Made by a program: the position numbers and the translations under genes | The notes under the pieces: model-generated | Databases searched by the model: none | What the model was told of the DNA's origin: nothing | The model's input: only the letters and a program-made list of their open reading frames with translations | Source of the DNA: Cupriavidus sp. 2SB | GTDB taxonomy: Bacteria > Pseudomonadota > Gammaproteobacteria > Burkholderiales > Burkholderiaceae | DNA: 64,000 bases | Direction of reading: 5' to 3' | Assembly: GCF_005503625.1 (NCBI RefSeq) | Contig: NZ_SCMX01000034.1 | Coordinates: 1 to 64,000, forward strand | Part shown: positions 38,606 through 43,692 of the stretch, piece by piece | Numbering within the stretch: the stretch's first letter is position 1 | How the letters are laid out: every line of letters begins with the position of its first letter

Positions 38606-38863
38606 ATGGCCCGCGTCGTCATGTACAGCACGGTTGTGTGCCCGTATTGCCAGATGGCAGAGCGCCTGCTCAAGCAGCGTGGCGTGCAAGAGATCGAGAA
38701 AGTGCTGATCGACCGTGAACCCGGCCGCCGCGAGGAAATGATGACCCGCACCGGCCGGCGCACCGTACCGCAGATCTACATCGACGATACCCATGTGGGC
38801 GGCTTCGACGACCTGTCGGCGCTCGACCGCCAGGGCGGACTCGTGCCCCTGCTCGCGGCCTGA
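38606..38863 (+). CDS. grxC: Glutaredoxin 3
   Basis: An 85-residue monothiol-reducing glutaredoxin with CPYC (C12, C15), the cis-proline loop RRTVPQIYID and GGFDDL glutathione-binding motif. SD AAAGGAG precedes the ATG. In the conserved gene order the next gene would be secB, but here a group II intron of about 2.95 kb lies between. Confidence 0.93.
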   Translation: MARVVMYSTVVCPYCQMAERLLKQRGVQEIEKVLIDREPGRREEMMTRTGRRTVPQIYIDDTHVGGFDDLSALDRQGGLVPLLAA

Positions 38864-38887
38864 GGTTGCTCCGACCCACGCGGCATG

Positions 38888-38935
38888 CCGTGCGGCGGCA
38901 AATCAATAGACGATTCTGATTCTGCCGCCGTACGG
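38888..38935. repeat. Inverted repeat after grxC
   Basis: CCGTGCGGCGGCA (38888-38900) and TGCCGCCGTACGG (38923-38935) are complementary except one position, with a 22-base loop. It sits between grxC and the intron 5' end and may be a transcript-stabilising or terminating hairpin. No T tract follows. Confidence 0.55.
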
Positions 38936-40121
38936 TGAATTCGACATCGGCGTCATGTACCATATGCGCTTTCGTGCGACACGCACTTTCGTGTCCGGCA
39001 GCTCTACGTTAAGAGCATCGACCTTTGTTGAGACAAGGGAAAGGCTTCGGCCAGAACCGTCCAATCTCAACCATTTCTTGCTTTGACAAGCCCAGCCGTA
39101 AGGTTGGAGCGAGTCCATGTGTTGTGGGAAGGCCAGACCATCGGCTGACTCGCAGCTTGCTATTTGCTGGATATATGTCCAGCCATTGCCCAAAGGCGGG
39201 GACGCTTGCCTTTGGGCAAGTTCTCTTTAAACGCCCTACTTCGGTAGGTGCGGGTGGGTTTGCAACTGTAGTTTTCGTTGCATCTCCGCTACATAGCATT
39301 CAAACCGGCCCGGTTGGGTCGGCGCTACGTTCTTTGGGACGGGTCTGCGCTCGAAAGAGACCGCCGCCGTCAAGCGCCTGCCACTATGGAGGCACTGAAG
39401 TAATGAAGTGAGGTTTCCCGGAGCGTCTAGCTCTGCGCGTTATGGTTCGGTCGAACACACCCGCGAGGGTACCTCGATAGAGAACCTGTCATGCGACTGA
39501 CAGTAGCCTAGGGAGACATGCGTCACTGACAACGGTGGGGTGTGAAGCTTTCCTGACAACGTAGCCCCCGCAAGGGTGCGTCATTATCGTGAGATAAGGG
39601 CGCAGAGACTCCGAGCAGCAATGGGGTCAAGGAGCCAGGCTGGCTGGTATGGGTAATGTAAGTGAACTGCTGATAAACGCCGTGAATATGACGGTGCCTA
39701 AGCTGCTGCGTGGCACTAACCAAAAGGTACGTGGTCGGTTATTCCGCTGGAAGCTCGGAATACGTCGCTGTAAGACCACCGGCGAAGAGGCAGGCCCTAA
39801 CCCGGTCTTGTAACGTGCAGGGAACGTGGTAAGCCCGTATGGCTGCCGGGGCGCTGTATGGCTCTGGCAAGCGAACCGCAAGGAACGCTGTTGGCTGTGC
39901 GGGTATGGGAGGTTGGAGAAAGCGAACGTCGGGCTGTAATGGTCCGGATAGGGGTTGAAACATCATCCCACGCGAAAGCGGGCAGACTTCCAACTGGTCT
40001 TTCGTCGCAAGACGGCTGACTGAACTCGCTTGTTTAATTTTCTTCCCTTGGGGGGTGACATACCCCGCAAGGGGCATGTTGTCTCTGCTAGTTGGGGAAG
40101 TCCTCAAGATAGGAGAGCAGC

Positions 40122-41837
40122 ATGGAAGCATTGATCCGCGAGGATGAATCTGCGCCCTCCGGCATTCCGCAGCGATGGGGCGACATCAATTGGCGCCGCG
40201 TCGAACAGAATGTTCGAGCAATGCAGATTCGAATTGCGAAGGCGACACAGGAACGGGACTGGCGCAGGGTGAAAGCTCTGCAGCGGTCTCTGACCCGCTC
40301 GTTTTCCGCCAAGGCATCGGCGGTGCGACGAGTGACGGAGAACCAAGGTAAACGGACGGCAGGTGTCGACCGCGAACTCTGGGACTCGCCTGAAGTTCGA
40401 TGGGTAGCCATTGGACGGTTGAGACGCCGGGGGTATCGGCCCATGCCATTACGGAGGGTCTTCATCCCCAAAGCCAACGGAAAGGAACGCCCTCTGGGTA
40501 TCCCGACCATGTTGGACCGGGCCATGCAGGCGCTATATCTGCTGGCGCTGGAACCGGTATCCGAAGGGACGAGCGATCCGAACTCTTATGGGTTCAGGTC
40601 CAATCGTTCTACTGCGGATGCTATGTCCCAGCTATTCGTCAACTTATCCAGAAAGGTCTCGGCCTCATGGATATTGGAGGCGGACATCCGCGGGTGTTTT
40701 GACCATATCAGTCACGACTGGCTGGAGCGCAATGTCCCTATGGACAAAGCGATCCTTCGGAAGTGGTTGAAAGCTGGCGTGGTATTTCAGGGCCAGTTTC
40801 AGGCGACCGAAGCCGGTACGCCACAGGGGGGCATCATCTCCCCGACCTTAGCCAATGTGGCGCTGAACGGACTGGAACAACAGCTAGCTCGGTTTCTCGA
40901 AACCACGCTGGGTGTCAACCAGACCCGGAAGCTCAAAGTAAATGTTGTGCGCTATGCGGACGATTTCGTGATCACCGGCAGCACGCCGGAAGTTTTGGAA
41001 CACGAGGTGAAGCCGTGGGTGGAACAGTTCCTCGCAATTCGAGGATTGTCCCTGTCCACGGAGAAAACGCGGATCGTGAGCATTGACGAGGGTTTTGACT
41101 TCCTTGGGTGGAATTTCCGGAAGTATTCCGGAACGCTGCTCATTAAGCCAAGCAGGAAAAACGCGCAAGCGTTCTATCGCAAGGTTAAGGAGGTTATCAG
41201 TGCTAACAAGACGGTAAAGCAGGAGGTCATCATTCGCCTGCTGAACCCGATGCTGAGAGGCTGGGCGCAGTATCACAGCCCGGTAGTGGCAAAAGAAGCG
41301 TTCAGCAAGATGCAGAGCCGAGTTTTCCGGGCGCTGCTCTGGTGGACAAAACGGCGACACAGAGGGAAGAACGCCGAATGGGTGCGGAAGAAATACTTCG
41401 CTTCGTTTGGTGATCGAAACTGGGTGTTCGGGACTGAGTTTGTGGAAGACGATGGGGAACGGCGCTGGCAGGAGTTGTATTCGCTTGCTAGCACGCCCAT
41501 CAGACGGCACAAGAAGATTCGGGGGGACTTCAATCCTTTCGATCCAGCGCAAGAGATGTATGGCGAAAATCTACGCCGGGACCGCATGCTGGAAAGCATG
41601 TCTCACCGGAAACAGTGGATCAGGCTATATGTCGATCAGCGGGGCTTATGCGCGGTGTGTCAGTGCAAGATAACCAAAGAGACCGGGTGGGATGACCATC
41701 ACATCGTCTACAGAACCCACGGAGGTTCAGACGCTCTAGGAAATCGCGTATTGCTGCATCCCAACTGCCACGTCCAAGTACACCATCATGGTCGAACCGT
41801 TGTGAAACCGGTGCTGGAGATGTCCAGCATTTTGTAA
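40122..41837 (+). CDS. ltrA: Group II intron reverse transcriptase/maturase with HNH endonuclease
   Basis: A 571-residue intron-encoded protein in domain IV. The RT domain has the catalytic YADD in [11 protein letters not shown], preceded by [16 protein letters not shown]. The maturase (X) domain follows ([12 protein letters not shown]). A C-terminal HNH endonuclease has C-x2-C (CAVCQC), [12 protein letters not shown] and HPNCH zinc/catalytic residues. All domains look intact, so the intron is probably splicing- and mobility-competent. G+C and codon use are lower than in flanking genes, as expected for acquired DNA. Confidence 0.93.
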
Positions 41838-41843
41838 GGGCTT

Positions 41844-41877
41844 GAGCCGTATGCGGGGAAACTCGCACGTACGGTTC
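41844..41877 (+). ncRNA. Group II intron domain V
   Basis: A 34-base helix with the canonical ends GAGCCGT and ACGGTTC and a GAAA-type terminal loop. Domain V is the catalytic core of the ribozyme, and its intact form supports splicing activity. Confidence 0.85.
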
Positions 41878-41996
41878 TTAGGGGGGAGCAAACCAGCAAT
41901 GGTATGCTCCTACCCTCCCAACCGCCGGCCGGCGGATCTAGACCGCCGGCAGCGCATGGCGCAGCGCGCCCAAACCGATCCATCCGGAAGCCTTTC

Positions 41997-42515
41997 ATGA
42001 GCGACCAGCAACAAGCTACCCAGCAGGACGACCAGCCCTTCTTCAACATCCAGCGCGTGTACCTGAAGGACATGTCGCTCGAGCAGCCGAACTCGCCGGG
42101 CATCTTCCTCGAATCGGAAGCGCCGTCCGTCGAGGTGCAGGTCAATGTGGGTGCCGCCCAGCTGCAGGAAGGCATTTTCGAAGTCGTGGTGACCGGCACC
42201 GTGACGACCAAGGTGCAGGACAAGGTTGCCTTCCTCGTGGAAGCACACCAGGCCGGTATCTTCGATATCCGCAACGTGCCCGCCGAGCAGCTCGACCCGC
42301 TGCTGGGCATCGCCTGCCCGACCATCCTGTACCCGTACCTGCGCGGCAACATCGCCGACGTGATCACGCGTGCCGGCTTCCAGGCTATCCACCTGTCGGA
42401 AATCAACTTCCAGGCGCTGTACGAGCAACGCCTGCAAGCCGCGATGGAAGAAGCACAAGGCCAGGGCGCAGAGTCGGGCATCGTGCTGCCGGACGGCAGC
42501 CAGGCTCGCCACTGA
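41997..42515 (+). CDS. secB: Protein-export chaperone SecB
   Basis: A 172-residue cytosolic chaperone that keeps preproteins unfolded and delivers them to SecA. Family motifs [19 protein letters not shown] and [15 protein letters not shown] are intact. The ATG at 41997 with SD GGAAG is chosen; an upstream frame begins within the intron end. In relatives it follows grxC directly, but here the intron separates them, so secB expression through the shared transcript depends on read-through or splicing. Confidence 0.95.
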
Positions 42516-42666: not shown

Positions 42667-43692
42667 ATGAAAATCACGATACTCGGTGCAGGCGCCTGGG
42701 GCACCGCGCTGGCCAGCCACGCCGCTGCCGATACCCGCCACGATGTGGTGCTCTGGGGCCGCGACGCGGACCAGTTGGCCGCTATCTTCGCCACCGGCAT
42801 CAACGCGGCCTACCTGCCGGGCGTACCACTGTCCGGACGTCTTGCTTACGATCCCGATTTCGACCGCGCCGTAGACCATGCGGTGTCGGATGCCAATGGC
42901 CTGTTGATCGTCGCCACGCCCGTGTCGGGCCTGCGCGAGATGACGCGGCGACTGGCTGCGCGTCGCAAGGGGACGTTGGCCATGCTCTGGCTCTGCAAGG
43001 GGTTTGAAGCGGAGACACACGCGTTGCCGCACCAGATGGTCCGCGAGGAACTGGACGCGCTTGGCGTGGCACCCGGCGAGATCGAGTACGGCGTGCTGAC
43101 CGGTCCGAGCTTTGCCCGCGAAGTGGCACAGGGCCTGCCGTGCGCGCTGACCGTGGCAGGCACGACGCACGCGCTGACCGATCGCGCGCAGGCGGCCTTC
43201 CACCATCACGCGATGCGGATCTATGGCAGCGATGACCTGACGGGCGTCGAGGTCGGCGGCGCGGTCAAGAACGTGCTGGCGATTGCCACGGGCGCGAGCG
43301 ATGGTTTGGGTCTTGGGCTCAACGCACGCGCGGCGCTGGTGACGCGTGGACTTGCCGAGATGACGCGCCTCGGGCTGGCGCTCGGTGGGCGTACCGAAAC
43401 CTTCATGGGTCTCGCCGGCATGGGCGACCTGATCCTGACCGCCACGGGCGACCTCTCGCGCAATCGCAAGGTCGGCCAGCAACTGGCGGGCGGCAAGACG
43501 CTTGAGCAGATTCTGGCGGATCTTGGTCATGTGGCCGAAGGCGTGCGTTGCGCGCAGGCCGTGGCCGCGCTGGCGGGACGATTGGGTGTGGAGATGCCGA
43601 TCACGCGGGCTGTGTGTGCGGTGCTGTTTGAGGGATTGCCTGTGGCGGATGCCGTGGCGAGGTTGTTGCAGCGGGATGCGCGGGATGAGTGA
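42667..43692 (+). CDS. gpsA: Glycerol-3-phosphate dehydrogenase [NAD(P)+]
   Basis: A 341-residue enzyme that reduces dihydroxyacetone phosphate to sn-glycerol-3-phosphate for phospholipid synthesis. The Rossmann motif [10 protein letters not shown] (7-16), [13 protein letters not shown] and the catalytic lysine region [12 protein letters not shown] are present. The N terminus [12 protein letters not shown] supports the start at 42667. Last gene of the grxC-secB-gpsA group. Confidence 0.94.

Follow-up and report, generated by a model that had tools for sequence, protein, structure and literature searches.

A 64,000-nucleotide (nt) stretch of Cupriavidus sp. 2SB (NCBI RefSeq assembly GCF_005503625.1, contig NZ_SCMX01000034.1, positions 1 to 64,000 of the forward strand; here called the window) carries a group II intron between grxC and secB. 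Why does the intron lie exactly there, and what would its position mean for secB? We compared the intron, its insertion site and its neighbouring genes with those of related introns. The answer that we consider highly probable from these comparisons is that the intron belongs to a mobile lineage that takes the -10/start region of promoters as its homing target, in many cases before housekeeping genes, and that the inserted intron is left as a 5' leader which splicing could remove.

The intron occupies positions 38974-41918 of the + strand, on which all features described below also lie, and it directly follows a promoter-like block. A -10-like hexamer, TACCAT (38958-38963), agrees with the sigma-70 consensus at 4/6 positions and ends 10 nt before the intron; upstream of it, across a 17-nt spacer and at the start of the block, stands a possible but weak -35 hexamer, GTGAAT (38935-38940, 3/6). 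Among 35 secB loci of the genus (own genome included), an intron occupies this point in 4, the site is empty in 29, and the remaining 2 do not have the site motif; two more filled secB loci (L043, L095) had come up in the intron search and were added. In the 29 empty relatives, the 42 bases 5' of the insertion point are conserved and the DNA on either side has diverged: 23 of the last 24 positions agree at 90% or more and the preceding 18 average 0.90, with conservation falling to about 0.5 farther upstream and 0.56 beyond +3. The order of elements in the conserved block is GTGAAT, 17 nt, TACCAT, 10 nt, insertion point. This block looks like the secB promoter, and its conservation is better evidence for that reading than its match to consensus. 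In several species the block also holds a dyad, GCGGGTG-n7-CACCCGC, that overlaps the presumed -35 hexamer and may be an operator or a hairpin.

We gathered copies of the intron from a wide set of genomes, referred to below by locus numbers (L). Some intron match was found in 40 of 100 relatives, many long copies being 79-88% identical and one 99.6%, and genomes with matches at the cut-off numbered 12 of 369 class-wide and 11 of 399 order-wide (own genome included). Of 80 loci from named genomes, the 5' end could be located in 68, and 12 had no recognisable 5' end. Five of 53 same-genus copies in which the 5' end was not found as GTGCGAC (L060, L061, L080, L084, L085) were left out, and the same-genus reading of 5' flanks skipped the distant L062, L063 and L089 and loci repeating a copy. 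The resulting 116 entries (108 distinct by sequence) fell into 54 site classes, defined by 5' flank similarity of at least 19/26 bases, a threshold that probably merges some different sites (for example L087 with L036 and L082 with L057). In a tree of the intron-encoded protein (IEP) with at most two rows per class (L082 and L142, with short frames, are absent), a branch with support 100/99 (midpoint root) sets 58 of the 74 rows apart from the rest. This clade is found in Beta- and Gammaproteobacteria and comprises 92 entries in 40 site classes. In its own genome (6.98 Mb), the window intron is the sole copy found of its family. A second intron there (C22) is distant: its IEP shows 53% identity in the aligned part, and its sequence places it outside the clade. 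C22 has no box at 9-12 nt, and TAGAAT stands 2 nt before it.

Throughout the clade, the introns lie at a nearly fixed distance behind a -10-like box. A match to TATAAT at five or more of six positions ends 10-12 nt before the intron in 30 of the 40 classes, and a match at four or more in 37. The closer matches are found at gaps of 10 (20 classes), 11 (7) and 12 nt (3), and at any other distance within 0-49 nt at most 2 classes have a 5/6 box. In 1000 dinucleotide shuffles, the same counts averaged 0.5 (maximum 4) at 5/6 and 3.7 (maximum 10) at 4/6. Outside the clade, a 5/6 box at this distance occurs in 0/14 classes and a 4/6 box in 2/14; counted by tree rows, a box of at least 4/6 precedes 54/58 introns inside the clade vs 3/16 outside. 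The majority box reads TA(T/C)AAT. Its second place is A and its sixth T in all 40 classes, its first T in 38, and A occupies the fourth place in 25 and the fifth in 32. Sigma-70 -10 elements likewise keep T1, A2 and T6. Four new copies, found once the pattern had been stated, had an IEP at least 64% identical to a query; three of them retained a 5' end (L194, L195, L197), and all three fit the pattern. Among new copies below 60% identity, none has a 5/6 box at a gap of 10-12 nt, L202 has a 4/6 box at a gap of 10, and in L182/L200 (one copy) the box matches at 5/6 with a gap of 9. The 5' exons of L156, L176 and L182, with the box at a gap of 9-10, end in ATG just before the intron and may represent start-codon insertions.

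The box is also part of the sequence that the intron would read. We located the exon-binding sites (EBS1 and EBS2) by a complementarity search over aligned introns, 900 nt each. In the window intron, EBS1 (GGAAGC, 39749-39754) pairs at 6/6 positions, one of them G-U, with the intron-binding site IBS1 (GCTTTC, 38968-38973), the last six bases of the 5' exon. EBS2 (ATATGA, 39686-39691) pairs at 5/6 with IBS2 (CCATAT, 38960-38965), which covers the latter part of the -10 hexamer plus the 2 nt that follow. Both exon-binding sites emerge from covariation over the 40 site classes: with G-U allowed, EBS1 pairs fully with exon positions -6 to -1 in 34 and EBS2 with positions -13 to -9 in 27. When EBS2 is instead placed in the register of the box, facing places 3-6 of the -10 hexamer and the two bases after it, 5-6 of 6 positions pair in 39/40 classes (all 6 in 24; G-U allowed), the exception being L109, which pairs 6/6 in the ordinary register. 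For boxes 11 or 12 nt away, the EBS2 register tracks the box and not the splice site. Permuting sites between introns destroyed both fits (EBS1, 223.5 vs a mean of 107.9 and a maximum of 133 in 2000 permutations; EBS2, 177 vs a mean of 116.5 and a maximum of 133). The 40 classes use 28 different EBS2 hexamers, and the EBS2 base facing place 6 of the box is A in every one of them. Given this variety of hexamers, the intron has retargeted, and nearly always to a -10-like box.

Downstream, in sense, the start of a tRNA or of a gene with a known family lies between 5 and about 230 nt past the intron in 34/40 classes; gene starts were taken as the first start codon of a long frame, which makes the distances approximate. 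The other six are unnamed, five with no family (L077, L081, L113, L118, L176) and one at a contig end (L125). In Cupriavidus, the downstream genes are secB, argC, gltX, octaprenyl diphosphate synthase, an aminotransferase, erpA, ribF, an MFS transporter, a DctP-type binding protein, ahcY, FKBP, hflK and rpiA. In other genera they are phosphatidylserine decarboxylase, secA, a PglL-like gene, squalene/phytoene synthase, a ribonuclease, an lptD-like gene, cytochrome c, tig, mrcA, amgK, ahcY (Pseudomonas), ndk, ppsA, argH, tRNA-Leu, a glutaredoxin, glnS (twice), efp, a tetrapyrrole methylase and hemB. Many of these are housekeeping genes, for example secB, secA, tig, ahcY, glnS, gltX, efp and ribF. 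In the Cupriavidus copies L053, L086 and L088, the 3' end of the intron is directly followed by an S-adenosylhomocysteine (SAH) riboswitch aptamer, and in Acidovorax L126 a tRNA-Leu begins 5 nt past the intron; both positions are as expected for an intron inserted where the transcript begins. In Pseudomonas L121, an SAH riboswitch begins about 40 nt past the intron. At the tRNA-Leu(CAG) sites of L126 (6849) and L128 (4556), the intron lies between a -10-like box and the tRNA gene, in what would be the precursor leader; a second tRNA-Leu copy follows in both, and L197 matches by its upstream site.

The site before secB has been entered repeatedly. In the intron tree (FastTree), the six introns at the secB site occupy three separate places, so this promoter-like site was invaded at least three times, and the ahcY, rpiA and ribF sites also hold introns from different tree branches. 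The window intron itself looks recently mobile: at the same site in another species (G030), the intron is 99.6% identical to that of the window genome (G000), with 12 differences in 2945 nt, amid diverged flanks (250 nt upstream and 555 nt downstream, 82-92% identical), as recent homing would leave it. Transfer of the whole secB region between the two genomes by recombination was considered and rejected, as identity drops right at the intron ends.

A course of insertion can be proposed that would account for this arrangement. The ribonucleoprotein (RNP) would read the sense strand by two pairings, that of EBS2 with the latter part of the -10 box and that of EBS1 with the six bases before the insertion point. 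It would then insert the intron by target-primed reverse transcription, in sense and at about +5 of the host transcript; for this chemistry we follow the known behaviour of HNH-bearing group II introns. If the boxes are working promoters, as we infer, the promoter would be left whole and would produce one long RNA: first a 5' exon about 4-6 nt long, next the intron and the IEP gene within it, and last secB; splicing would restore a near-native 5' leader. As a rule, transcription starts about 7 nt after a -10 box. It is because of this assumed start that the 5' exon would be only 4-6 nt long and IBS2 would not be in the RNA, and splicing would therefore rest on the IBS1-EBS1 pairing.

Several observations weigh against reading the boxes as promoters that the lineage targets. 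At the window site, a consensus scan calls no sigma-70 promoter, the -10-like box there matching at 4/6, and over the 40 classes -35 boxes at a spacing of 16-18 nt are not clearly enriched (2.70 vs 2.64 by chance). Under other settings, with 37 classes, the -35 score was 2.51 vs 2.29 +- 0.14; the test says little, because its control, other TATAAT words, was flat too (2.34 vs 2.39), and we count its outcome neither way. Conservation of the secB block at -16 to -1 is in part there by construction, since the empty sites were picked by a motif in that interval, although the motif is missing from just 2 of the 35 loci. For the box register, the best-fitting of three gaps was taken (for L176, 9 was set by hand), which inflates the position counts; the shuffles were given the same freedom. 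Recognition and first count of the clade-wide pattern rest on one data set, and the new copies that fit it cover only two new sites and one known one, L203 being a fragment without a 5' end. Within the clade, L118/L119 lie at the stop codon of an OmpA-like frame, the introns at the L081 site, among them the C. taiwanensis plasmid copy L208, probably run antisense to a coding region, and L111, L156 and L176 are weak or off by one. L118 nevertheless keeps A2 and T6 at its stop codon, for which reason part of the TAnnnT pattern may be an intrinsic preference of the RNP. Finally, some chloroplast-like (CL) and mitochondria-like (ML) introns are described in a passage of one review as lying in housekeeping genes (PMC4424553).

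What draws the lineage to such sites is less certain than the pattern itself. It is possible, and we offer it tentatively, that the RNP hunts active promoters by entering the strand opened by RNA polymerase, with EBS2 on the melted part of the -10 box and EBS1 on the start region. Promoters would then be a further class of target for bacterial group II introns. IBS2, upstream of the transcription start, would act in DNA only, so that insertion would use two pairings and splicing IBS1 alone, and the intron would ride constitutive core-gene promoters as a removable leader and could set their expression by slow splicing. A somewhat stronger candidate, though we still give it less than even weight, is plain homing to a fixed motif: the IEP and EBS2 would prefer TAnnnT, AT-rich words in GC-rich genomes happen to occur in promoters, and the position would be a by-product. 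Such homing does not exclude the best-supported reading, since it shares its anatomy and differs in the cause. The invariant A2 and T6 and the invariant A of EBS2 opposite place 6 fit it well, as do the retention of A2 and T6 by L118 at a stop codon without a promoter and the lack of a clear -35 enrichment. Preference for a fixed motif does not, however, account for places 3-5, which follow the -10 consensus even though EBS2 varies among 28 hexamers. Nor does it account for the gene or tRNA that follows soon downstream in sense in 34/40 classes, or for a gap that varies from 10 to 12 nt while the EBS2 register tracks the box.

Selection after insertion and plain coincidence both seem improbable to us as sources of the pattern. 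Under the former, insertion would be broad, and only those copies that spare a housekeeping promoter and add a removable 5' leader would persist, the others being purged. That bacterial group II introns are held, in a passage of one study, to interrupt housekeeping genes seldom and to be possibly deleterious to host expression (PMC6003770) would suit such purging, and a single open IEP frame in 50 of the 53 same-genus copies is as in young, active elements. Avoidance of harm would, however, allow many places in 5' leaders and in dispensable DNA, and it predicts neither the 10-12 nt spacing nor the pairing of EBS2 with the -10 box. We give equally little credence to the view that the intron merely happens to split a grxC-secB transcription unit, leaving secB to read-through or splicing. 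The intron is intact-looking and in sense, and there is no consensus promoter between it and secB, all of which this view would accommodate. Against it, the insertion point marks the end of the conserved promoter-like block, the 29 empty sites retain that block, and the same arrangement recurs before unrelated genes.

For secB, homing into the start region would have specific consequences. The gene upstream, grxC (38606-38863; glutaredoxin 3, TIGR02181, 108 bits, cut-off 90), and the two downstream, secB (41997-42515; profile matches, and the single DNA match to secB found in this genome) and gpsA (42667-43692; profile matches), are all on the + strand, which bears out the sense orientation given by a first-pass annotation of the window made from the sequence alone. 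That annotation described the intron as splitting a conserved grxC-secB pair. The intron does lie between the two genes, but it does not simply split a unit: it sits directly behind the apparent secB promoter. Because of this position, secB need not rely on read-through from grxC, as had been proposed; it would depend on transcription from its apparent promoter across the 2.9 kb intron, spliced or not. A strict sigma-70 consensus scan from the intron 3' end to secB found no promoters, and the same scan misses the presumed promoter before the intron. Dependence of gpsA, also suggested as possible, found no support: in an analysis that did not extend to the gpsA promoter, nothing links this gene, which starts 151 nt past secB, to the intron.

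The intron is a full group II intron and apparently intact, in agreement with the first-pass annotation, which also had its 5' end right at 38974 (GTGCGAC). The 3' end had been placed at 41922, 4 nt too far. Empty relatives read ..CGNTTTC followed directly by CAA.., so CAAC (41919-41922) is exon, and the end of the RF00029 match agrees with an intron of 2945 nt ending at 41918. The final dinucleotide is CC, and in sibling introns AC or CC. Degeneracy of domain I, which the annotation had named as a finding that would tell against its reading, is not the case: the conserved domain I region (39485-39634) matches Rfam RF02012 with 120.4 bits (cut-off 34), and 11 scanned siblings score 110-124 bits. 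Domain V is intact as described, domains V and VI together (41842-41918) matching Rfam RF00029 with 68.2 bits (cut-off 40). Their fold has z = -6.0, and a bulged A at 41912, seventh from the 3' end, is the presumed branch point. The IEP (40122-41837) is an open frame of 571 amino acids that matches RVT_N, RVT_1, GIIM and HNH (PF01844, 28 bits, cut-off 21.4) and passes the group II reverse transcriptase (RT)-maturase equivalog TIGR04416 with 368 bits (cut-off 300). These profile matches confirm the maturase and the HNH endonuclease domain, and YADD stands at residues 278-281. From an ATG within domain VI, a reading frame of 203 amino acids in all continues into secB in phase (41904-42515), probably by chance.

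Among known introns, the nearest kind is, we presume, the group IIB or CL mobile introns with an RT-maturase-HNH protein, such as those at the groEL stop codon. The introns described here share with them the RNA domains, the IEP architecture, the use of the 5' exon by EBS1 and EBS2, and the form of the 3' end, TACCCnMC. Unlike them, which home in genes or mobile elements, the clade homes to a -10-like box, with IBS2 inside the box. Sister introns outside the clade (L136, L157, L159-L163, L166, L169, L173) lie at the very end of groEL (..ggcggcatgatgta, then GTGCGAC), and the frame upstream of L136 reads as a GroEL C-terminus, GGM repeats included.

According to two papers, introns of group IIC (class C) take as their targets attC sites or the DNA just behind intrinsic terminators (PMC4424553, PMC8919778). 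Like those introns, the clade targets one generic, gene-independent landmark and keeps the coding sequence intact; unlike them, its landmark is a promoter/start region and not a terminator, its protein has an HNH domain, and it is placed for transcription and not shielded from it. Assignment of the window intron to the terminator-directed group IIC was rejected, as its IEP carries the HNH domain and the clade shares a -10-like box instead. At the window site (38800-39060), the only terminator-like site found was the intron's own first 13 nt. With the CL and ML introns of housekeeping genes (PMC4424553) the clade has in common sense insertion in core genes, where splicing is presumably needed; it differs in that a single clade occupies the 5' leader of many genes at one spacing from a promoter-like box. 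The same review names, in a passage on target specificity, three for bacterial group II introns: homing sites, terminators and attC (PMC4424553). Among the matches listed in a search of the open-licence literature, covering titles and abstract openings, none concerned promoter-directed group II introns. These comparisons suggest that the intron is ordinary by its parts, and that its target is unusual, well supported and outside the insertion habits usually listed.

The clade is of interest in that its members lie directly behind the promoter-like boxes of many core genes. If our reading is right, they form a natural system in which to study how cells tolerate a ribozyme of 2.9 kb in the secA, secB, ahcY or glnS leader, whether about 5 bases of 5' exon suffice for splicing, and whether the transcription bubble can serve a retroelement as its point of entry. 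Bacterial tolerance of core-gene introns would become testable with intron-plus and intron-minus strains, and promoter-directed insertion tools would suggest themselves.

Two further observations concern relatives of these introns. A circular Pseudomonas aeruginosa 'plasmid' of 2837 bp (L209; CP075775.1, 1-2837) consists of one intron, its 3' end joined exactly to its 5' end. It is related to the clade (IEP 82% identical to L121) and is either intron DNA in circular form or a result of assembling tandem copies. Distant introns with an IEP 53-58% identical to the queries split tRNA-Gly beside the anticodon. This is the case for L183 (intron start 610), where the joined exons give tRNA-Gly(CCC) (ARAGORN), so that the cell would need splicing for this tRNA; judged from the 5' flank, L180, L191 and L206 likely also split tRNA-Gly genes.

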